Part shown: positions 52,476-64,000 of the stretch, one piece after another
Position numbering within the stretch: position 1 is the first letter of the stretch
How the letters are laid out: each line of letters starts with the position of its first letter
The notes under the pieces: generated by a model
Database searches by the model: none
What the model saw: only the letters and a program-made list of their open reading frames with translations
What the model was told of the DNA's origin: nothing
Translations under genes and position numbers: made by a program
DNA from: Beverwykella pulmonaria
Lineage: Eukaryota > Ascomycota > Dothideomycetes > Pleosporales > Melanommataceae
Length of the DNA stretch: 64,000 nt
NCBI GenBank assembly: GCA_001599595.1
Contig: BCHH01000004.1
Location: 2,888,920-2,952,919 of the forward strand
Direction: 5' to 3'

Positions 52476-52879
52476 ATGCAATTCTCGACCCTTCTCGTCG
52501 CTACTTTCGCCATGTTTGGTGCTACTGGACTGGCATGCCAATGCCATGCAAACGACTTAAACGTGCCAAATGACGACGCGACGACACAATGCTGCATTGA
52601 TCGTGGAGCTACTCCAGTTACCAACAGCAAGGGCGAAATAGACTGCCCTGCCGATCAGATCTCTGAAGAGCTTTCTAATTTTTCCGAATGCTGTGCTACC
52701 AAGAGTGCTTTCTCCGACTGCCCTTTCCCCGGTGCATCCGCGAACAACTGGTAAGTTGAGGTGCAAAATGTGGGTATTATGGCAGCTGCTAACTATTCTA
52801 AGAGTCTGAAAATAGCTTGATGGACGCCGCACACTCTTTTGCATTCTCAACGCGTTGCATGAATGACGAAGGAGCGTAA
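52476..52879 (+). CDS. Small Cys-rich secreted protein (effector-like)
   Basis: Exons 52476-52750 and 52816-52879 (intron GTAAGT...GCTAAC...AATAG). About 112 residues. Signal peptide MQFSTLLVATFAMFGATGLA. The mature part has around ten cysteines in the pattern C-x-C...CC...C...CC...C...C...C, with CQCHANDLNVPND, TQCCIDRG and FSECCATKS, and ends AFSTRCMNDEGA. Even number and pairing suggest a disulfide-stabilised extracellular protein. A TATA box and clean splice sites support expression. It lies in transposon-rich DNA, as many plant-pathogen effectors do. No known family. Confidence 0.7.
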
Positions 52880-55132
52880 GGCGAGTATATTGGGAAATCG
52901 TTTGGCGGGTCCACAATTCCATTCATTCATTAGTTACCCTCAATAAATCACTCGCTTGGTAAAATTTTCCTCCAAATTCAATGCTCTTATCGTACCACGT
53001 CAAACTCATTGCGTACTTTAGTCTTTTTCTTTATAATTGTTCTTTCTTCGCCCTTCTATTGCTTCCGTAAATACTCGCAAGTATGAGAATTGCCAAATAA
53101 TAATCTACCAATGAAGCAAGGTGTGGGTGAAATGGTATCAAGATGTGTATTGTGTTTGTGGTATGTACAGTTGATATTTATTGCGCCGTAACGAAGAGCT
53201 ACTTTGCCCGAATCTACCTCAGGCGATGATTGAAATCTTAGATGCATGGTGCAAAGAAGGGGTCTTGACTCTCTTTCAGCTGCTTGCTTTGTCATCATTT
53301 AACATAATATATACTCAGCTGGGACCTATCATCGAGAATCCGGATCCAAAATCCGGTAACTAACACTTCGACCCACCAACAAAGACCACACGAAGGTCAC
53401 CTTAAGGGGGTGTTCACGATCATTCTTCTATCTTCGTGGCTAAATACAACGAAATTACAACAGTCTACTGCCAAACTTCATCTTCTTCGTAAACGTCACT
53501 CGAGACTTTTAATCTTCCTGCCTCAGTGCATTCCTGCTTCGGACATCGCATGGATGCGAGTCACCCTCTACCCTCCTGATTTTGTATCACCCCTTTACTC
53601 CACTACATTATATGACAGACCGATGAGTTAGTGGCATACCTACATGACCGTATAGTATTTGGGACTTACAGTCTAATTTAATTATCTACTCCAGGAGGAA
53701 AGGGGCTGAGCGCATCTCAACTTAACACGCGCGTAGACAAAAGTCCAGACTCTATCCTGGACACGATCAACCCTTGCTTGGATGCATCTGACAAGATGTT
53801 GCACACATGACTTTTGGAAGATATGGCGGATAAGGTATGCATAACATGCGTTAAATGGTGTAGTTGGACCACTGTCGTGATGTAACGAAGTAGATTGATA
53901 GAATGATGTTCGTTGATTTGGCTCTCCAGAGGAGCTACTGAAGAGATATCTATAGTCTTACCAAGCACGCTAGGAGCCAACACACCCCCTCAGGCTCATT
54001 TTGAGTGAACTGGGAAGAAATGCGATCAAATCGTCCTGTTGAATATAATAACCTGTGGGAACAAAAATGTGAACACATTGATACCCCCCTTCTGTGATGA
54101 CGAGCTCGGTCTTCACCATTGTGGATGCGCAAGGCAAATGAAGGAATAAGTAGGCTCTATTTCAGCTACACTAAGATAGAGAGAGGGAAGAGGTACTCAA
54201 GGAGAACGATCCTATATACATAAAGGTACGGTCCGGGCGCCGGCCGACCGAGCATTTCCTGAGAGTGCGGCATGGCGTGGCGCGCACACGTCGTCCGACG
54301 TGGTTGAGCTGAGCGTGCGCCACTGTCGCATCTGATGTGTATTCCTGTGATGTGTGGTTGAGCTTACCCCCTGCTACCATCACCTCTAATACGTGTTCAT
54401 GTGGCGTGTGGTCGAACTGGCGAGCAGCACCGTCACACCTAGCAAGTAAATTACAGATTAAAGGCCTGGAGGTAGAGGTCTACTGAAAGATAATTTAGAT
54501 TCTAGGCATATAGGTCAACCCTAAAATGCAATAGAAAGAACACAGCACCAAGGCAGCTAAACGCAGAGAGGACTTGTTCAACGGAATAGCACGTATTACC
54601 GTGTCAACATAGAGGCTTTGAGGGATACTTCTGTTTCCCGGCGGGCCTCCTGCAGAGACCCCTCGGAGGCCCATCGGTCCGTGTGTCTACAGGTCACGTG
54701 ACACATCATTTGTATAGTTTCCCAAATCCTAAGTATCCTCAAGGATTCGTCTCGACTCTGATGAATCAAGTCTGTTTACCTCTGATTCATCTCATCGTTC
54801 TGTTCTTTGCCAGTACTGCTCTCACACTTACTCTCCTACTCTCCTACTACTATCACTCTAATCCTCTATTCTCTTTCTTGATTTACCTTGTACGGGAGCA
54901 AGCGTGACAGGGACGGGCGGTCAAGAACTAAGGAAATAAGCTATATACGCTCAAGAGCGTACAAACAGCACATAAAGCACACGAAAGGTTTTCATTGTAC
55001 ATAGGTTTCTCCTTAGGCAATAGTCTGCATAGCTCTATAGAGGGCTGGTAACAGACGGTAAATAGAACATAATAATAATTAGCCACCACCTATCCACTCG
55101 TGGCTATTACTTGGAACCAAATCAAGTTTCGT
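52880..55132. other. Gene-free stretch with LTR pieces
   Basis: About 2.2 kb without a supported gene. Holds the interrupted LTR (53122-53670). A pyrimidine-rich stretch near 54800-54890 could be another LTR but no boundaries could be fixed. Confidence 0.45.
53122..53670 (-). mobile_element. Old LTR of the TGTAAG family, split by about 430 bp
   Basis: The 53131-53177 part (AAGATGTGTATTGTGTTTGT...) and the 53608-53670 part (ATATGACAGACCGATGAG ... GGGACTTACA) correspond to the two halves of the solo LTR at 48149-48280 in the same order and orientation. The sequence between has no match in the solo LTRs; it is an insertion or internal element remnant. No target duplication found. Confidence 0.6.
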
Positions 55133-56005
55133 CTAATTCTGCCATGTCATGTTATACCTTGCTTCCTGCTCTATCTGAAACTGCCTCAACTTTTCAAAAT
55201 CAATACATTCATGCTCAACGCCCCATCCTGTCACCGAAGTAGCATGATGTTCCTCACCAAATTTGATCGGAGAATTCCCTTCGACCACCAAATCCCCGCC
55301 GCAAGATACTGCTTGACGTAGGTACTCGAAGCAGTGCTCAACGTGTACTTTCCACATGGCCTTGGAGAGGTCATCGGTAGTTGAACGCCGATTTACTTCC
55401 TGGTAGTATTGGTAGCGGACGATGATCTAAACAGCATAAGTTGATGTGATTAGGTATGAAGCAGCATGAACTTACTAGACAATGCATCTGATGAAGCAGA
55501 GAAACGACGTAAAAGTTCTGTGGCTTCGGACTAGGAGTGTTGGGGTGGTCATACGGAGCCAGAATACCCTGGGGAAGATTCCATTTGTCTGGTTCCTCGA
55601 CCCATAGAGCGTCGTGACCTGTACGTGTTCAATATATAAAGAAGAGTCAGACAGTTATGCAGGTTTTTGCTTACCGGCAACTAGAGTATCCCACTCTCGA
55701 GTCACGTTTATGCCATCACCCACGAAACGCTCGTCTGGCGCAAAAACTTTTTTCACGGGTGTGAAAACTTCCCTGGGAATTGGCGACCGCGAGTATACAC
55801 GTAACGTTCCATTGGTTTGGGAGCCCGGAACATAAATGGATAGCAGTGTAGCTATCCAGCCCATACTCAGGAAAATGATTAAGAAGGTTTGGATTGTCGG
55901 AAAGGGCCTTGATTTGGTTTTCGGTAACATCTCTGGAAGAGCTTCCTCGGACGACAATACGTAGTCATAGTCAAACTTGGGACGACCAAATAATTTCCAA
56001 TTCAT
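55133..56005 (-). CDS. UstYa-family (DUF3328) oxidase-like protein, copy 1
   Basis: Minus-strand exons 56005-55675, 55618-55476, 55426-55133; 255 residues. A cytoplasmic start (MNWKLFGRPKFDYDY) precedes one membrane helix (FLIIFLSMGWIATLLSIYV), then RSPIPREVFTPVKKVF and the two hallmark HxxHC motifs, HQMHC and HVEHC (HVEHCFEYLRQAVSCGGD), and WGVEHECIDFEKLRQF. UstYa-family proteins are membrane-bound, probably copper-dependent oxidases that cross-link or oxidise ribosomal peptides in fungal RiPP pathways (ustiloxin, phomopsin, asperipin). Its first intron is at the same phase-1 place as that of copy 2, so the two are paralogues. It lies at the left edge of the cluster reaching to 64 kb. Confidence 0.85.
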
Positions 56006-56551
56006 AATGAACGGGAGAAGTACAGACGAGATTGTTGACAGATTGTTGGGAGACTGTTGAGAGATTGTTAAAAGATCTTTGAAAAGATGTTGAAAGACGA
56101 ATGAGCTGTGATGTATCTCGAGGTTATTTTTCAAATGTGGGCAGTCCTCAAGACCCTGAGCGGTTACCGTATAGTATGCTGATGACGATTTTTAGTTTTC
56201 CTAATTTGGAAGCTGCTGTTACTACCTGTATATGTAGTGGATTTTAGGCTCATGATCCGAACTCCGATATACCGGTGAGTAGAAAATTCGGAGGGATTGA
56301 TCAGGCAGTTGTTGTGGGTGTTGCAATAAGCTTTCACGGTGAGCCGCGGTGCACGATCTTACTGCATATCGTGTTCGGGACATTTCCGTATTCAGACAGA
56401 TAGGGATTCCAGACTCCCGAGGTCGCTAAAGCCAAATCCCTGTTTCCGTCCTATTCCATAAATGGTAATTTAGCTTGAGGATGTAAGATCCTACTCCATC
56501 CTTTCAGCTAATGCTTGATTCTAGTCCTTGAATTTATCCAGAATGTTAGTA

Positions 56552-56734
56552 CAGTCGACTCTCGATAGTGCGATCTTGATGATATTGCGCTAGCAGTAGA
56601 ATTCGGCCTAATAGCTTCTATATTAAGCCTATTAGCGTCTATATCAAGCCTAATACCTTCTAAACTAAGCCTAGTACCTCGATACTGCAATACTGCGATA
56701 CAAAAAATTGTATCGCACTAACGAGAGTCGACTG
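56552..56734. mobile_element. 183-bp MITE with 24-bp inverted repeats and TA target site
   Basis: Begins CAGTCGACTCTCGATAGTGC and ends GCACTAACGAGAGTCGACTG; ends match as inverted repeats over about 24 bp with one mismatch. Flanked by TA (56550-56551, 56735-56736). Features fit a Tc1/mariner (pogo-type) non-autonomous element. Inside are three or four imperfect repeats of about 24 bp around AAGCCTAATA. Confidence 0.85.
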
Positions 56735-57168
56735 TACATATCTCTTGGATCTCCGTACAAGGTAGTGAGTCCCATTTTCTCTGCTAAACACCATATACGA
56801 TACGGCTTTATGCAACCCGAATGCCATTGACCTCGAACCCACGGGCAGCATGGACGGACGGAAATTCTCATACATTTGCCACCCAGTCTCTCATACAAAA
56901 GACCTCCATATGCCGTGTGCGCAGGAAGCGACCTATAGTCCGAGATCCTTTCGCCAACCGCTACTGCGGCTAAGACTTCGTGTAAAGAGTGTTTGAAGCA
57001 GTGCACAGATAAAACATCCTTCCTGCAGAGCCGCAGTTGTTAGCGGAAGAGGCCCGGTGAACACTTCCTGCAGTATAGCGGCTTTCCACGTCTGACATGC
57101 AGCAGGGCTCCCGTCATTCAGCTGCCACTATGTCGGTCTTCGTCACTATTAGCGTTAGAATAGGCTTA

Positions 57169-57202
57169 CGAAGGAGATCGTATTTTCTGCTAGCCGATGT
57201 TG
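57169..57202 (+). promoter_or_regulatory. Sequence block shared upstream of two UstYa genes
   Basis: CGAAGGAGATCGTATTT, a 7-nt spacer, then GCCGATGTTG. The same blocks with an 8-nt spacer lie at 61241-61275 on the minus strand. Each is upstream of a UstYa gene in that gene's orientation (about 220 bp from copy 2, 570 bp from copy 3). Could be a common regulatory site or a relic of promoter duplication. Confidence 0.4.
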
Positions 57203-57420
57203 CTGGTCTGTGCACCGTGGTTGCAACAACAATACGATCTGCTTCGCATAAACTAGAGCGGTTTAAGATAAGCGAAATTCAGGCGTCCGGCACGGGCCTT
57301 TTGCCATCCTGCGTGTACATTTCCAAGCCAGGCCGGACTGTAGGTAGTAACTCACGACCGCTATGCTGTCATAATTTTCCCTCCAAACTTAAGTTTCTTA
57401 AAAAAAAAGATTGCCTCGAC

Positions 57421-58284
57421 ATGCAGTTTACTTCACTCTTTGATCGCGAAAAGCGGTACAAGGCTTTAGACTCTCACGAATCGCTACCAATTGAAGACTT
57501 TGAGAACAGCCGTGCTCCCTCGATTTCATCAACTTCGAGCGCTGTGTTCACAAAAGCTCTTTTTGTTCTCTTCGGTATCAGCGTGGGGATATGCCTAGGA
57601 TTCTGGCTCCAGATTTTGAATCAGAGCCAGAACGGGTACTTTCGTACCGACCAGCGCAGTCCGATCCCTCAAGAAGTTTTCACGAAGAGGCACAATGTTC
57701 CATTCATTCCTGATGAAAGGTACATAGGTCCTTCAAAGGAGGTGGCTCACAACTGGAAGAAACTGACAGAAGGTATTTGCTCCGATCTATCTGTTTACTA
57801 TTCACTGACCTTCCATACAGCTTCCGACTCAATCTTCATTGAGGATCCCGAAGCGTACTCTCTACATGATCCAGGCATTCGTGCTCCATTCTTCATCTTC
57901 GGGCATCCACCGAAAGCCGCAAAGGAAGCCGACACGCTCACCAACTTCTACGTTCTCAATAACCTTCATCAACTTCACTGTGTGAATATGATCCGTATGC
58001 GCTATAATCAGATTGTTTACGATGCGAAAAATGTCACGCCTCTATCAGGGTCTCCATTGGATGCAGATTGGATTACGCATCTTGAGCATTGCTTCGAGTA
58101 TCTACGCTTGAGCATCACATGTGGTGACTACATGGTATTGGAAACCGATTCACCACCAGGAAGTCCGGAGGAGTATTGGAAGGATGGTCTGAGCTGGGGT
58201 GTGGTTCATTCTTGCATAGACTGGGACCGTTTGATTGAGTTTCAAGCACAGCAGGTCGTCGCCTACAACAAAACATGGTCGTAG
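57421..58284 (+). CDS. UstYa-family (DUF3328) oxidase-like protein, copy 2
   Basis: Exons 57421-57772 and 57821-58284; the 48-bp intron is a multiple of three and has no stop, so an unspliced reading would wrongly include it. Splicing gives WKKLTEASDSIFIEDPEAY, aligned with copy 1. 271 residues: N-terminal cytoplasmic part with FDREKRYKALDSHESLP, a membrane helix (ALFVLFGISVGICLGFWLQI), RSPIPQEVFTKR, then HQLHCVNMIRMRYNQ and HLEHCFEYLRLSITCGDYM, both HxxHC motifs, and WGVVHSCIDWDRLIEFQ. The start at 57421 was chosen because it fits copy 1. Presumed RiPP oxidase acting in the secretory pathway with its neighbours. Confidence 0.85.
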   Translation: MQFTSLFDREKRYKALDSHESLPIEDFENSRAPSISSTSSAVFTKALFVLFGISVGICLGFWLQILNQSQNGYFRTDQRSPIPQEVFTKRHNVPFIPDERYIGPSKEVAHNWKKLTEGICSDLSVYYSLTFHTASDSIFIEDPEAYSLHDPGIRAPFFIFGHPPKAAKEADTLTNFYVLNNLHQLHCVNMIRMRYNQIVYDAKNVTPLSGSPLDADWITHLEHCFEYLRLSITCGDYMVLETDSPPGSPEEYWKDGLSWGVVHSCIDWDRLIEFQAQQVVAYNKTWS

Positions 58285-58980
58285 AGGAGTTGAGAACTCG
58301 GTTCTTAGATATCATTGACCCAGTTTTACTTGTTAGATACGAATTGTACTACTATCTACCATATCTCCAGCGCTAATTTTCGCTTTGAAACTTTTTATGG
58401 TATCACCGTAATCAACTTCACTTTCCTGATCTCCTCAGAGTACTAGCCAGACAAGGGGGCTACTATTGTCAGAGGTTACATCTTATTTGCACAAAACTAA
58501 TACAACTGACGACTCAAAGGAGGATTCCACGAGTCCAGGCTCTAACTATCCGTATATTTCAAGTCTAAAGGAAATAAATTATTATTTCATACGGGGTTTT
58601 CAAGCATCCGGGGCTAGCAGGGGCCGGGGGTGCACGGCTTCTCATGTTACAATTTGAGCTTCTGGATTAGCCCCGTGATATATTTTCCCGTGTGTGATAG
58701 ATTCCGGGCTTAAAAGAGCTGATTTGGGGGTGATCTGCCCCACAGTTTCATCTGCATAGAAGCCTAATAAGAATGTGTCCTTCATATCAGGTTGCATAGG
58801 TTCTCTTGCGGCGCGTTGCTCACTGCAGGCCTTGTCAGACAGAAGCTCAATATAACGCGAGTCGCTTTTAGTGGCAGGTTTAGAGAGCCTTAAAACAATG
58901 CATATCAAATTACTAGTCACTAGCTGAAGTATGCACCATTAGCTTCTGCAGGCGCAGGCGCATGAGCAATAGAAATTTCA
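58285..58980. other. Intergenic
   Basis: Tail-to-tail space between copy 2 and the GNAT gene; no supported gene. Confidence 0.5.
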
Positions 58981-59601
58981 CTACAGTCCATAAACGGTGA
59001 GATCCTCGGCCATCCCCGGCATCACCCAAACAATGCCTGTCTTCCCTCCAAACACTTTGATCGCTCGTTCTCCACGATTTTCAAGTCCAAGACTTCGCAA
59101 AACCCCTTGTGAGGCTCCATTGTTTGCGTCGCACAGACCAAGAACTTCTGTAATACCAAGCGATTCCTTCACATATTGTAAAAGGGATTGAGTCGCTTCC
59201 TTCGCAATTCCTTTACGCATATGCGCTGGATGAGTAATGAATCCAACATCCGGGACTGTGAGTCCCTTCCCTTCTGCGCCTCGCATCAGCGATACCATGC
59301 CAACTGGCTCACATGCACGAATTTTGTCCGAAAGCTTTAGCAGGGGGTCTCTTGGCTCCTCTTTCAAGGTAACTAGGTATCTCCCATATCCGTTGCGTGC
59401 GTGTTCTTCCCGAAACGAGGTCATGATTTGGTTTCGAGCAGCATCTCGAGTCGTGATGCTTGTTGGTTTTCCTCCAATAGATGCAATGAATTCGGGCGTG
59501 TTGTAGAGTGTTACGAGCCAGTCGCAATGGGAGGGTTCGTTGGGTTGGAAATAAACTAGATACAAGCGAGGGGTCTCAATGAAAAAGTTTGGGTCCGTCA
59601 T
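58981..59601 (-). CDS. GNAT acetyltransferase (RimJ/RimL type) within the RiPP cluster
   Basis: Single exon, 206 residues, ATG at 59601. IETPRLYLVYFQPNEPSHC is the first GNAT strand; the acetyl-CoA loop is HPAHMRKGIAKEATQSLL and the end has LGLCDANNGASQGVLRSLGL, typical of RimJ/RimL-like acetyltransferases. It lies between UstYa copies 2 and 3, so it may acetylate the mature peptide's N-terminus or confer self-protection; this is inference from position. It could equally be an unrelated gene: this family is very widespread in fungi. Confidence 0.85.
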   Translation of the reverse strand: MTDPNFFIETPRLYLVYFQPNEPSHCDWLVTLYNTPEFIASIGGKPTSITTRDAARNQIMTSFREEHARNGYGRYLVTLKEEPRDPLLKLSDKIRACEPVGMVSLMRGAEGKGLTVPDVGFITHPAHMRKGIAKEATQSLLQYVKESLGITEVLGLCDANNGASQGVLRSLGLENRGERAIKVFGGKTGIVWVMPGMAEDLTVYGL

Positions 59602-59765
59602 TTCGCACAAAATCGAACCAAAGACAGAGAGGGTAGATATTCTTGGACTACATAAGGGGTGGGGCGGATGAGAACTAAATACAAAGGGCCAAGAATTTAC
59701 CGAGGAGGTCTGTGCACACTACCGGTAGTCGGCTATATCAGCTACGCATTATACCACCTAAGTTA

Positions 59766-60670
59766 CTATGAGTCGAAGCTGTTACGCTGACCAGGAGTAT
59801 GAGTGTTGCCACCATGGTGCTTTCCATCTGGAGCATCTTTCCCCAACTTATCAGAACGATTCTCGTACGCCCAGGTAAACATGCGCTCGAAGTTGCGACA
59901 TCGGTGTACAGCTCCCATACCATTGATTCCGGCCTCATGGAGCGGTTCAAAGGTTGAATCTCCAGCACACATGAGGGCCTGTCGGATGTAATCAAGACAG
60001 TGGTCGCGATGGTAGGCCACTTCATCAACAGGCATATCTGCCACAGTGCTCGGCTCATAGGCAAATCGCAAGAAGTTGAGACAGTGGAGCTGGTGGAACA
60101 TAGAGACTCCATAGACCTAGAATACGTCAGCTTAAATATACAAAATGCTACGTTGAGATTTATGAAGCCAGTGGGGAAAATACATACCTTGTGCGTGGTT
60201 GGGTTTTCTGGAGCAGGAAGCGAAGGTGGCAAGCCCTTCGTGAATTCGTTCGGGACTTCAACAATACCATCTCCAGGAGGTGAGAGCCGGCGCCAGATTT
60301 CATTGGTCTCGTTGGATGGTGGGCCTCCATAGAAATGATGCGGTTGAAAGGTCACCCGTGAATCGTAGCGTACTGCTTCGTTAACGTTGGACTCGGTATG
60401 TGATGGTTGTAACTTACGATCTGGCTCAAATTCAGATTTATTATTTGGATCGCATGAAAAATTCTCCATTATGTGATAGACGCGAAACCACAATGCTAGG
60501 CTCACAAAAAAGACGATTATGTTGAGAGCGACAACGGCATTTCGAAGACTGAATAGATGCAGCAATCTTTGGGTTCGGCTGGGCGATCGCCTCATCCCAT
60601 TTTCCATAAGAAATGCCTTATCATCGTCCATGGAGGAACGGGAAGGAGAGAAAGTCGACGTGGAAGACAT
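59766..60670 (-). CDS. UstYa-family (DUF3328) oxidase-like protein, copy 3
   Basis: Exons 60670-60188 and 60116-59766; intron 60187-60117 (GTATGT...CTAG), phase 0, just before the first histidine motif. 277 residues if started at 60670 (MSSTSTFSPSRSSMDDDKAF); another ATG lies at 60706. A membrane helix (NAVVALNIIVFFVSLALWFRVY) is followed by PPGDGIVEVPNEFTKGLP, then FHQLHCLNFLRFAYE and HRDHCLDYIRQALMCAGDST, the most canonical HxxHC pair of the three, and GMGAVHRCRNFERMFTWAYE. It differs more from copies 1 and 2 and has a different intron, so is an older paralogue. Likely one of the cross-linking oxidases of the cluster. Confidence 0.87.
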
Positions 60671-61623
60671 TTCAATGTACAATTTTTCTTTTGAGGTCTG
60701 TGACATGAGCAAGTCTTCCCATTTCAATGTTGAGTGTTGGAGGTAATAAGGACTCACCTATTCCCAACACGGTTAGTACTTAATTGTCGAAGATTAGTAC
60801 CATTGAAATGTGCCCTGAGATATACTGTGGCCTGTACAGTCCCCAGCTGCCTCCTCCGGCCCAGAACATTTGAGGCATTAGATTATCATGTGGCAGGGTG
60901 AGCAAGGATGCGGAGGAACGCATTCATCTCTCACCGCATGACTGTTACAAGGGTGAGAGCTAATTGATGAACGGACCCCGAATAACTTTCTGTTTAGAAT
61001 TTTATCGTAATGGGAGGATGCGCCGCTTGCTTACCCCATGGAGAAACACATAAGCAGATCACCGGTGGTCGGCGTTGCCGATTTCCCAAGGAATTCGCTT
61101 ACAGGTGTCCGTTCCATAAGCAAGGTTAAGTTCTCATACAAATTATGTCTGTGCGTAGTAACACACGACCGTGCTCTTACTTCGGAGTGTATCGGGCGGT
61201 GCTCGTATTTCTAGTTGCACCCACGTTACTGGTCTGTGCTCAACATCGGCGCAACAAGAAATACGATCTCCTTCGGACGGACAATCCTGCAGATCATATA
61301 CCCCACCCCGGTATAATACACTACTATAATGATGCACTAGATCGGCAGGATTCTCAGTTACGACCTCACACGATCTCTCCAAAGTCAAATCGACCCGCAA
61401 AGACAGCTGTACTTTGGTTGGAACAGAAGGTAAGGACATTTGCATCATGACACGTAAACAACAAGACTATGACCAGGGAATTTTTCTTGGTAATAATAAC
61501 AACAGCATTAGTAACGAGAGAAAAAAGAGTGCAAATTTGGTAACATCTATCACGTCTCTTTCTTCAATACAGCGCCTGCTTCGAGCATTACTCAAACAAT
61601 GTCTCATCCGTCATATTCAAAGA
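60671..61623. other. Intergenic between copy 3 and the hydroxylase gene
   Basis: Holds the second shared block (61241-61275, minus). Frames of about 100 codons on both strands at 61143-61450 have no family features. Confidence 0.5.
61241..61275 (-). promoter_or_regulatory. Second copy of the block shared upstream of UstYa genes
   Basis: Minus strand CGAAGGAGATCGTATTT, 8 nt, GCCGATGTTG; matches 57169-57202. Confidence 0.4.
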
Positions 61624-62472
61624 CTACCAGAACGACCTCTCCCGCGTCAAGATATTCATGCCCACCTTCCTACCCCTTTTTACGGGCATACCCGCGTGCC
61701 ACACACCTTCGTGGCCAGTTCCATCCTCATGAAGATTTCGCCAAAAGACTGCGTTCCCTACGATAGGCTTGAAATCTGTGCCACCCACTACGGGGTCAAG
61801 GTTGATGAATTCATGCCATTCGCTAGTAACATTCTTTTGTAGGCGAGGAAATCCTGTGGCACCCCCAACACAAGCAGAGCCATCGACATCGTCACAAGCA
61901 AGGTAAACAAAAAAAGACGACACGCGAGGATTTTCCGCGCCCTGCCACCAGTCGTAGTGGGGCCTGAAATGATCGTTGACACCGTACTTGACAACTTGCA
62001 AGTCCTCCAAATGGCCTACGGACGTATGGCCTTGGAATGCGACTGCACGCAGCTCGATACAACGAACAATTGGATCGTCCAGAACAACGGCTGACATGGA
62101 AGATCGTATCTCGTCATCGTATCCTTTGGTGTTGGCGGGGGTAGAGACCGGTGAACGTTCGTACAGTGGCTCGGCGATGTGAAGTAGATACTTTGCTTCA
62201 TCTTGCGTGACCCAGTTCTCAATGTAGATTATGAGCGGGTCGAATGAAAAAAAGCGGGTCTTGTATCCATGGTCAGGACATGCATTTTGATATTGCTCGG
62301 CCAGTGCCTCAAATGGTGTTTTGGTGGAAACTTGCTCGTGGTTCATTTTGATAATGGAGAGGGGGGTCTTGGAAACCCATGGAAGAAGAGCCACCAAAAG
62401 ACTTGGTACGAAGAAGGTGAAAATACGAACAAAAGAGGAAGTGGAAGTGGGCTGGTTTGATTTGGATTTCAT
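61624..62472 (-). CDS. Prolyl 4-hydroxylase-like 2-oxoglutarate/Fe(II) oxygenase
   Basis: Single exon, 282 residues, ATG at 62472. An N-terminal membrane anchor (FVRIFTFFVPSLLVALLPW) places the enzyme in the secretory pathway. The catalytic domain has IIYIENWVTQDEAKYLLHIA, the iron ligands HxD in FRPHYDWWQ, the distal His in HEGVWHAGMPVKRGRKVGMN and the 2-oxoglutarate-binding basic residue after it. It also has FPRLQKNV and GNAVFWRNLHEDG typical of the P4H alpha-subunit family. Fungal members hydroxylate Pro or other residues. Inside this cluster, with a precursor whose core begins with Pro, a role as RiPP hydroxylase is attractive but inferred. Confidence 0.87.
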   Translation of the reverse strand: MKSKSNQPTSTSSFVRIFTFFVPSLLVALLPWVSKTPLSIIKMNHEQVSTKTPFEALAEQYQNACPDHGYKTRFFSFDPLIIYIENWVTQDEAKYLLHIAEPLYERSPVSTPANTKGYDDEIRSSMSAVVLDDPIVRCIELRAVAFQGHTSVGHLEDLQVVKYGVNDHFRPHYDWWQGAENPRVSSFFVYLACDDVDGSACVGGATGFPRLQKNVTSEWHEFINLDPVVGGTDFKPIVGNAVFWRNLHEDGTGHEGVWHAGMPVKRGRKVGMNILTRERSFW

Positions 62473-63402
62473 GATTTTGGTTGTAGCGTTGAGAAAGAGA
62501 AAAGATGGTGGATGAGTTCAAGGCAGAGCAGAGGCTTTCAAATGATGTTGCGAGTTTCTTTCCGACTGATTGAACCCTGGCTTTTCGGAGTTGGCATGTG
62601 ATTCAACGCCCTTTCTTAGTTACGAAATATAGCCTGTAATTCCGATCATTTTAGTAGGGGTATGGGCTAGAGAGCTAGGGAGTAAGTCAGATCTAATCCT
62701 TTTTCCGCCTTCGCACACGGCTTATGATACGGTTACAAGGAACGCCAAAGCTTTGTCCGACTCATGTTGAACAATTGTATGTGCACAATGTTTCAGCTTT
62801 CGGGGAAAGCTAATATCAATACATATGCAGGTAAGCTCTCCGTGAAAACTAAATCCCATGTAGATGTTAGTGAGCTTTTGATAAAAAATCTATATCAGTG
62901 CACATATATGTAAGAGAATACGATAACTGCCTTCCGGTCGTGGCTAGTTTCTTCGTCCTGTGAAATGTTGGCACTTCGTTGGTGGCATTGCATAGTGGGT
63001 CCAGCCAAGGATCAAGCATTCTTCACAGTTACATCCTCAAGGAATTTTCGACATTAGTGCTCTAACGCTGATAGGAATGTTGCCCCGAGAACACCTTGCA
63101 GTCTCGTTTTCGGCTCAGAATCGATAGTCTTTGTGCCACACAGGATGCATCCCTAGCGTTTACCTGACGATCCACATGTACTGCAAATCGCATTAAGGAA
63201 TTGGATATGTAGGGATTTGAGTCTCTTCCAATAGATCGCTATGAGATCCGTGTTCCACTAAAATCATCTCCAGCTACGAAATGAAGCCTACAGTAATGGC
63301 TAAGTCTATGCGTCTTTGTAAGGGTTGATAGTGATATCGCCTTAGCTGAAGTTGGATAAGGGGCCTTCCCAGATGCGTCATAGTGAAGTAGCCGACGATG
63401 AG

Positions 63403-63409
63403 TATTTAA
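63403..63409 (+). promoter_or_regulatory. TATA-like box of the precursor gene
   Basis: TATTTAA, about 180 bp before the ATG. Confidence 0.4.
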
Positions 63410-63494
63410 ACCCGGTGGTTCCTTTTCAACCAGATATCCTTCATCCTCACGAGTTGCACTTCACGCTTCCAGTATCAGAATTTCAGTTCCGCAG

Positions 63495-63547
63495 GTGAGC
63501 ATTAAGACGAATCATATGTAGTAAATTAGTGTTAATTTCGACAACAG
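63495..63547 (+). other. Possible 5' UTR intron of the precursor gene
   Basis: Donor GTGAGC at 63495, TTAAT branch-like site, acceptor CAACAG ending at 63547; 53 bp, typical intron length here. Removing it leaves a 40-nt leader before the ATG. Confidence 0.4.
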
Positions 63548-63587
63548 ACTTCAACTAAACATCGTCGACACAACCTCAGCTTTCAAT

Positions 63588-64000
63588 ATGAAGCCAACAT
63601 CTGCTCTCCTGCTTGCATGCGCGGCTCCTCAACTCGCATCGGCAGCGAGACTCGATAAAGCCATTGTTGGACTCATGAGTCCTCTCTTTGCTTCTGCAGC
63701 CACCATCAACCGAGAAGCTCAAAATTTGGCAGCTGAGAAGCGCGAGCCAGAGGAAGCAAGCCCAGCCTGGGTTTGGGCCAGCAAACGCGTCACCGAAAGG
63801 CGTGAGCCGGAAGAAGCGGCCCCTGCCTGGGTGTGGGCCAGCAAGCGTGAAGCCGAAGCTCAACCTGAAGAGGCTGCGCCTGCTTGGGTGTGGGCCAGCA
63901 AGCGCGTCAACGAGAAGCGTGAAGCCGAAGCTCAGCCTGAAGAAGCTGCACCTGCCTGGGTCTGGGCCAGCAAGCGTGAGGCCGAAGCTCAACCTAAAGA
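63588..64000 (+). CDS. RiPP (dikaritin-type) precursor with kexin-processed repeats, runs off the window
   Basis: Open from the ATG at 63588 to the window end (137 codons or more, no stop reached). Signal peptide MKPTSALLLACAAPQLASAA, a short spacer, then tandem repeats. Four copies of PAWVWASKR lie at 63762, 63822, 63879 and 63951 (spacing 60, 57, 72 bp). Each is preceded by an acidic leader (EPEEAS, EPEEAA, EAEAQPEEAA) and followed by Lys-Arg, the Kex2 cleavage site; short extra segments VTERR and VNEKR separate some units. A fifth leader begins at the edge. Signal peptide, identical short cores, KR sites and EAEA spacers are the architecture of fungal kexin-processed RiPP precursors such as that of ustiloxin. 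With three UstYa-type genes and a hydroxylase alongside, this is the likely substrate. Predicted core: AWVWAS or PAWVWAS. Alternative: pheromone-like kexin peptide. Confidence 0.88.
   Translation, partial: MKPTSALLLACAAPQLASAARLDKAIVGLMSPLFASAATINREAQNLAAEKREPEEASPAWVWASKRVTERREPEEAAPAWVWASKREAEAQPEEAAPAWVWASKRVNEKREAEAQPEEAAPAWVWASKREAEAQPK
63762..63977 (+). repeat. Core-peptide repeats of the precursor
   Basis: Four cores identical at the protein level while the DNA differs at synonymous places (TGGGTT, TGGGTG, TGGGTC for Trp-Val; AAACGC, AAGCGT, AAGCGC for Lys-Arg). Selection therefore appears to keep the peptide rather than mere recent duplication. Confidence 0.9.

Follow-up and report, generated by a model that had tools for sequence, protein, structure and literature searches.

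Gene content of the locus

The window, a stretch of 64,000 nt of the Beverwykella pulmonaria genome (45.6 Mb, 31 contigs), spans C4:2888920-2952919 and ends on its right side inside the gene of a Kex2-processed repeat protein (KEP), of which it holds the 5' part. Within 8.5 kb of this precursor gene we observed three UstYa (DUF3328) genes, whose starts are 2.9, 6.2 and 7.6 kb away from it on the upstream side, a GNAT-family acetyltransferase gene and a gene for a prolyl-4-hydroxylase-like (P4H-like) oxygenase. The features, in window coordinates, are as follows.

55133..56005, minus strand: UstYa-A, 255 aa (inferred exons 55675-56005, 55476-55618 and 55133-55426; PF11807, E 1.8e-29)
57169..57246, no strand assigned: inverted-repeat element, copy 1, putative cis element, between UstYa-A and UstYa-B
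57421..58284, plus strand: UstYa-B, 271 aa (inferred exons 57421-57772 and 57821-58284; PF11807, E 7.9e-24)
58981..59601, minus strand: GNAT-family acetyltransferase, 206 aa, between UstYa-B and UstYa-C (PF13302, E 2.3e-16); role uncertain
59766..60706, minus strand: UstYa-C, 289 aa (inferred exons 60188-60706 and 59766-60116; PF11807, E 2.2e-32)
61198..61275, no strand assigned: inverted-repeat element, copy 2, about 0.5 kb upstream of the UstYa-C start
61624..62472, minus strand: P4H-like 2OG-Fe(II) oxygenase, 282 aa, with an N-terminal hydrophobic segment (PF13640, E 1.3e-7)
63588..64000, plus strand: KEP precursor gene, 5' part (ORF and translation; relatives P0002, P0003, P0005 and P0095-P0097)
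63588..63644, plus strand: putative signal peptide MKPTSALLLACAAPQLASA (hydrophobic residues 5-13, A-x-A before the presumed cut)
63762..63788, plus strand: unit 1, PAWVWAS-KR (KR included, as in the units below)
63822..63848, plus strand: unit 2, PAWVWAS-KR
63879..63905, plus strand: unit 3, PAWVWAS-KR
63951..63977, plus strand: unit 4, PAWVWAS-KR

The precursor and its four units

The precursor ORF comprises 137 codons and is open at the right edge of the window. As the sequence after position 64000 (C4:2952920-2958777, 5,858 bases) is all N in the genome sequence, the 3' end of the gene is unreadable. The N-terminus is hydrophobic and carries an A-S-A/A-R site, and hence has the look of the ER signal peptide expected of a KEP, as judged by hydropathy and inspection by eye only. 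Some 30 spacer residues come next, and then the four units, which start at residues 59, 79, 98 and 122 and are separated by acidic stretches, EPEEA(A/S) or EAEAQPEEAA, and short VTERR or VNEKR pieces. Each of the four units is followed by KR, so that the ORF has tandem repeats split by dibasic sites (KR, RR or KK), the second feature of a KEP. The translation thus bears out the earlier note, which had described a secreted precursor with acidic leaders and four PAWVWAS-KR cores. When residues 36-137 were shuffled, some 7-mer occurred twice in 28 of 10,000 shuffles, compared with the four copies observed.

At the nucleotide level the units differ in five columns, all of them third positions and all synonymous; when the units are compared in pairs, 18 differences are synonymous and none is nonsynonymous. 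Given a synonymous fraction of 0.21, five synonymous columns out of five have a probability of about 4e-4, assuming that the sites change freely, without repeat homogenisation. The earlier note had pointed to synonymous differences between the repeats, and all five columns are of this kind.

Relatives of the precursor and the conserved core

The precursor search scored 8,000 candidates sharing most words with the query, and the relatives found are a lower bound. With the Beverwykella precursor as the query, at least four proteins were matched (P0002, P0003, P0004 and P0005). P0002 and P0003 come from short contigs, are likely metagenomic in origin, and have both the leader and the units in common with the precursor. 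P0004 has the same leader and diverges inside the first unit, its sole unit-like stretch being PVWCHV. P0005 is the precursor of Penicillium palitans; used as the query in its turn, it added P0095 of P. solitum, two further proteins (P0096 and P0097) and a truncated one of P. cf. viridicatum (P0098), in which one PAWVW unit is followed by PAWSAF. A possible 53-nt intron (GTGAGC...AACAG, 63495-63547) was seen by eye in the 5' untranslated region of the Beverwykella gene, and the longer N-terminus of P0002 may be an artefact of it.

Seven near-full precursors, including the Beverwykella one and leaving out the truncated P0004 and P0098, contain 27 units. PAWVW is present in 26 of them, the exception being PIWVG in P0005, and the residues that follow it, up to the dibasic site, are variable (AS, SS, SP, SSSS, SSAS, SSSA). 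Thus, the conserved core is PAWVW and not a heptapeptide: of the heptapeptide core proposed earlier, the first five residues stand, and the AS tail is variable in the relatives. The pattern used to define the units called for P, W and a closing dibasic site, hence the presence of Pro and of a following dibasic site (KR, RR or KK) in 27 units out of 27 is to be read with this in mind. The distribution of Trp was checked separately, without the pattern, and all 53 Trp residues of the seven precursors fall within the units. Neither Tyr nor Cys occurs in any of the 27 units; Trp is their sole aromatic residue, Phe being likewise absent.

The leaders of the Beverwykella and P. palitans precursors are largely different, with at best five of nine residues in common (E 0.37); both have a short AS..IN.E stretch, and alignment A2 shows no variation at IN.E. 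The other six near-full proteins extend only 4-10 residues past the last dibasic site, and therefore carry no further domain. The earlier note had named a lack of core conservation in related fungi, together with a lack of expression, as an outcome that would speak against its reading; on the first half of this, the search against other proteins found PAWVW kept in Penicillium. The precursor family is real and conserved, probably inside a dikaritin-type gene cluster, and its core strings (AWVWAS, AWVWSS, PAWVWA, WVWAS, WVWSS) occur in none of the main texts of 5.39 million papers.

The UstYa genes

All three spliced UstYa models match PF11807 above the cut-off, have two HxxHC motifs and carry an N-terminal hydrophobic or membrane segment. 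The motifs lie at residues 153 and 186 in UstYa-A (hydrophobic segment at residue 41), at 167 and 204 in UstYa-B, which is 36% identical to UstYa-A, and at 181 and 209 in UstYa-C. Genome-wide, PF11807 gave 58 exon matches in 31 regions, and the zones reaching 10 kb to either side of these matches make up 1.4% of the genome.

Relatives of UstYa-C are numerous: 89 proteins at E<=1e-10 among 310 candidates, from named ascomycetes of many genera, including Penicillium roqueforti (54% identity), P. discolor (61%), P. vulpinum (64%) and Aspergillus clavatus (57%). In alignment A3, for which 25 of the 89 matches were picked by hand, identity across the subfamily is 44-60%, and both HxxHC motifs are kept in 24 of the 26 rows, P0013 and P0037 keeping one. 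No sequence relative of UstYa-C was found in the PDB at E<=1. In the passages at hand of two papers (PMC12435403, PMC12186524), DUF3328 proteins are described as binuclear copper, O2-dependent enzymes of peptide oxidation, with peptide hydroxylation, halogenation and cyclisation as the chemistry of the family. By family, UstYa-A, -B and -C are predicted to be binuclear copper oxidases.

Other genes of the neighbourhood

The P4H-like oxygenase matches the prolyl-4 hydroxylase of PDB entry 2jig (E 1.7e-11). Its residues H172, D174, H259 and K269 align on His, Asp, His and Lys of that protein, which we take to be the catalytic residues, so that both the iron triad and the 2OG-binding Lys are in place. 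The enzyme may be a modifier of the core Pro. Since P4H-like genes also occur in three other regions of the genome, each more than 500 kb from any UstYa match, the assignment of a role to this one is based on its adjacency to the cluster. Both it and the GNAT gene may be bystanders.

Pfam was run on 20 proteins chosen from 125 ORFs of at least 90 aa (93 in the window, 32 downstream), and no regulator, transporter or peptidase family was found among these 20. None of the 38 tyrosinase matches in the genome lies near C4:2.95 Mb, where the N stretch could hide one. Further to the left, Pfam assigned four long ORFs to an alpha/beta hydrolase, a DUF7924 protein, a BTB protein and a cutinase, none of them resembling a cluster gene, and gave no match for four smaller ORFs. 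A small Cys-rich protein of 92 aa, probably secreted and also without a Pfam match, is encoded at 52476-52751 (plus strand).

Past the N stretch lie a fragment of a Ser-rich ORF and an overlapping ORF with no Pfam match. A multicopper oxidase extends there from L002:about 8378 to L003:about 467; measured along the scaffold, about 7.9 kb separate it from the start of the precursor. It could be an oxidative partner, and was left out of the cluster parts because the N gap separates it from the cluster. Downstream of the oxidase is a piece of a fungal-type protein kinase (L003:876-1280, minus strand; PF17667, profile end only).

The inverted-repeat element

The two copies of the element are related inverted repeats with the common middle CTGGTCTGTGC; copy 1 ends 175 bp ahead of the UstYa-B start. 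A gapped pattern of about 60 bp, written from both copies, has two exact matches in the 45.6-Mb genome, both of them here, and the reversed control has none. A pattern of 15 fixed bases would give about 0.09 exact matches in a random sequence of this size, although the pattern was picked after the fact. The 16-mer arm matches exactly at three sites, all at the cluster, and with one mismatch at 10 sites elsewhere (control, 6). Within the window the arm has five matches with at most three mismatches, against 1.62 expected, and two of 100 shuffles reached five.

BLAST with copy 2 returned only copy 2 itself; as it missed copy 1, this search does not exclude diverged copies of the element. We also considered a dispersed repeat family, which is unsupported, as the gapped pattern found the two cluster copies and no other. 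The restriction to the cluster suggests a cis element through which the UstYa genes could have a common regulator. Upstream of the precursor, as far as the P4H-like gene, there is only an 8-mer of the element, AATACGAT at 62917, which is a weak match.

No Rfam match was found in 54900-64000. Two further non-coding features were seen beside UstYa-A. An inverted repeat at 56536-56750, between UstYa-A and UstYa-B, whose two arms of 39 nt are 82% complementary and are separated by 137 nt, resembles a small inverted-repeat transposon, and imperfect 11-nt tandem units of the GAGATTGTTGA type lie at 56028-56104, just upstream of the UstYa-A start.

Comparison with known systems

The definition of dikaritins is a KEP precursor cyclised by UstYa homologues (passage of PMC10512285); only five were counted in a 2022 review. 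The locus has both components, a KEP precursor and, beside it, UstYa homologues in the form of three PF11807 genes. As far as the available passages describe ustiloxin, phomopsin, asperipin-2a, epichloecyclin and victorin, they share with it a signal-peptide precursor, repeated cores between Kex2 sites and adjoining UstYa genes. According to the passages on their chemistry, however, ring closure in the known dikaritins involves Tyr or Phe, whereas the units here have Trp as the only aromatic residue. Of the ustiloxin-type combination, a Tyr core with a clustered tyrosinase, neither part was found; instead of a tyrosinase match the neighbourhood has the P4H-like oxygenase and the GNAT gene.

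Several other systems resemble the locus in part. In the passages at hand of a KEP survey that lists 1,758 KEP genes with DUF3328 neighbours (Umemura 2020; PMC7329392), type P-3 comprises KEPs in which W is accompanied by P, four of seven having DUF3328 neighbours. Trp and Pro in the repeats and the DUF3328 neighbours of some members are thus common to type P-3 and our precursor; the members come from Fonsecaea, Cladophialophora, Galerina, Psilocybe and Coprinellus, and the comparison was made by description, not by repeat sequence. Clan R2 of lichen RiPPs, in the description available, similarly combines a UstY-family gene with GNAT acetyltransferase genes, but it has one UstY and many GNAT genes, compared with three UstYa genes and one GNAT gene here, and no repeat precursor was found in it. 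The HxxHC(x)nHxxHC motif and the N-terminal hydrophobic helix are shared with CctR, AprY and other DUF3328 copper enzymes in the passages at hand of PMC12435403. In CctR, four His residues are described as coplanar. The substrates of CctR and AprY differ from the one considered here, and the function of UstYa-A, -B and -C is a prediction.

Proposed pathway and alternatives

The layout of the precursor, the conservation of its core, the three UstYa genes and their intact HxxHC motifs, the oxygenase and acetyltransferase neighbours and the cluster-only element are read directly from the DNA. From these we infer that the precursor gene belongs to a dikaritin-type RiPP cluster with secretory entry, UstYa oxidation and Kex2 release, with a probability of roughly 0.75, and that a small modified peptide, so far undescribed, is probably made from it. 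The precursor protein would enter the secretory pathway, where UstYa-A, -B and -C, anchored in the membrane and acting in the lumen, would oxidise the core PAWVW(A/S)S, which is repeated and lacks Tyr; EEAAPAWVWASKR is a candidate substrate peptide for their lumenal domains and for the P4H-like enzyme. The oxidation would most likely link the side chain of one Trp with that of the second or with an adjacent residue, and hydroxylation of the invariant Pro may be the task of the P4H-like enzyme. Kex2 would then cleave after KR, a carboxypeptidase (Kex1) would remove KR, and dipeptidyl- and other peptidases would trim the acidic spacers, the end product being several copies of one small modified peptide. 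The three UstYa genes and the presence of PAWVW in Penicillium support the proposal of the earlier note that the gene encodes the precursor of a modified, RiPP-type peptide.

If the peptide were an unmodified signal, of the alpha-pheromone type or hormone-like, it would be freed in linear form by Kex2, Kex1 and a STE13-type dipeptidase, and the UstYa enzymes would serve otherwise. The units would then be expected to carry spacers of the XA/XP type after the Kex2 site. Those of the Beverwykella precursor do (KR-EP, KR-EA), and by eye each of the four units would be trimmed to EEA(A/S)PAWVWAS if EA, EP and QP dipeptides were removed; in Penicillium, however, some of the spacers, namely KR-DT and KR-GT, do not match STE13 dipeptides. 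A Cys pair in the released peptide, a feature taken from Fusarium-type pheromones, would also be expected, and no unit has any Cys, although alpha factors of some yeasts lack a conserved Cys pair. A canonical alpha-pheromone pattern gave two matches in the rest of the genome against three in the reversed control; with the ORFs around them inspected, neither is convincing, so that this pattern offers no other candidate for a role that this gene might fill. Ascomycete alpha pheromones, in the portion of PMC6339444 at hand, have Kex2 units with EA/EP-type spacers, and KR-EA/EP fits their STE13 signature, but the precursor here is adjoined by UstYa genes, and all but three of the pheromone-annotated KEP genes in the available passages of the survey have no DUF3328 neighbours (PMC7329392). 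On balance we consider a linear signalling peptide improbable. Still less probable is a structural or surface repeat protein, of the cell-wall or effector type, in which the repeats and the KR sites would not be used for peptide release. Secreted repeat-rich proteins are common in fungi, and the end of the precursor gene itself is unread; against this, the six near-full relatives have no further domain, and a dibasic site follows all 27 units.

A third alternative concerns the chemistry and is a sub-case of the dikaritin-type cluster proposed above: the UstYa enzymes might only hydroxylate, desaturate or decorate the core (for example, yielding dehydro-Val or hydroxy-Pro), and no cross-link would be formed. 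Such reactions have precedents in the family, since UstYa proteins desaturate residues in phomopsins (passages of PMC10512285) and one UstYa protein hydroxylates cyclochlorotine (passages of PMC12435403); moreover, the P4H-like oxygenase keeps the aligned His/Asp/His/Lys, and Pro is present in all 27 units. Three different UstYa genes beside an aromatic core rather recall cyclising pathways, though this is not decisive. We regard decoration only as less likely than not.

Trp as a possible site of cross-linking

A Trp cross-link, which the earlier note had raised, is the natural guess, because known dikaritins link Tyr or Phe and Trp is the sole aromatic residue of the units. It is one option among several, as UstYa proteins also hydroxylate, desaturate and halogenate. 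The UstYa enzymes would join Trp to Trp, or Trp to Val, Ala or Pro, within PAWVW, giving a Trp-linked dikaritin in Beverwykella as well as in Penicillium, and the P4H-like enzyme would add hydroxyproline. This full scheme is tentative, and we rate its chances as somewhat short of even. The Trp content of the repeats gives no guidance, as in the survey passages at hand it is similar in KEPs with and without DUF3328 neighbours (20.5% vs 24.5%; PMC7329392), and hence Trp itself is no predictor of UstYa chemistry.

The cluster is of a known type, and the cross-link is possibly new. It would be new because the dikaritins described in the passages at hand cyclise through Tyr or Phe, and the literature passages on the family do not report a Trp cross-link made by UstYa enzymes. 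Among the papers searched, none treats at least four of the subjects UstYa, prolyl 4-hydroxylase, RiPP, 2-oxoglutarate and fungi together. Plant BURP cyclases act on indoles. Bacterial radical-SAM enzymes do so too, according to reference titles in PMC12186524. Whether the copper UstYa enzymes can act on indoles as well is a question for which a Trp-only core, kept despite largely different leaders, is well suited. The product masses to seek are fixed by computation, and relatives are available in the named Penicillium species. As [M+H]+ they are, for PAWVWAS, 816.404 (linear), 814.388 (-2H), 812.373 (-4H) and 830.383 (-2H+O); for PAWVW, 658.335, 656.319 and 654.303; and for PAWVWSS, the form expected in P. 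solitum, 832.399, 830.383 and 828.368.

Other KEP-like sequences in the genome

The PAWVW-(small)-S pattern has six matches in the genome, four in the precursor gene and two singletons elsewhere (L032 and L037); no KEP-like ORF was seen around the one in L037. Two weak KEP matches were found at other loci. The match in L021 was rejected, as it lies in another reading frame of a gene that, by eye, seems to encode tetratricopeptide repeats. The other is a KEP-like secreted ORF of 154 aa (L020:1405-1869, minus strand; C2:about 4838973-4839437) with the Trp units PGGSNWSGKR, PGGRAWGGKR and PGGGSWSGKR, and its nearest UstYa match is more than 100 kb away.
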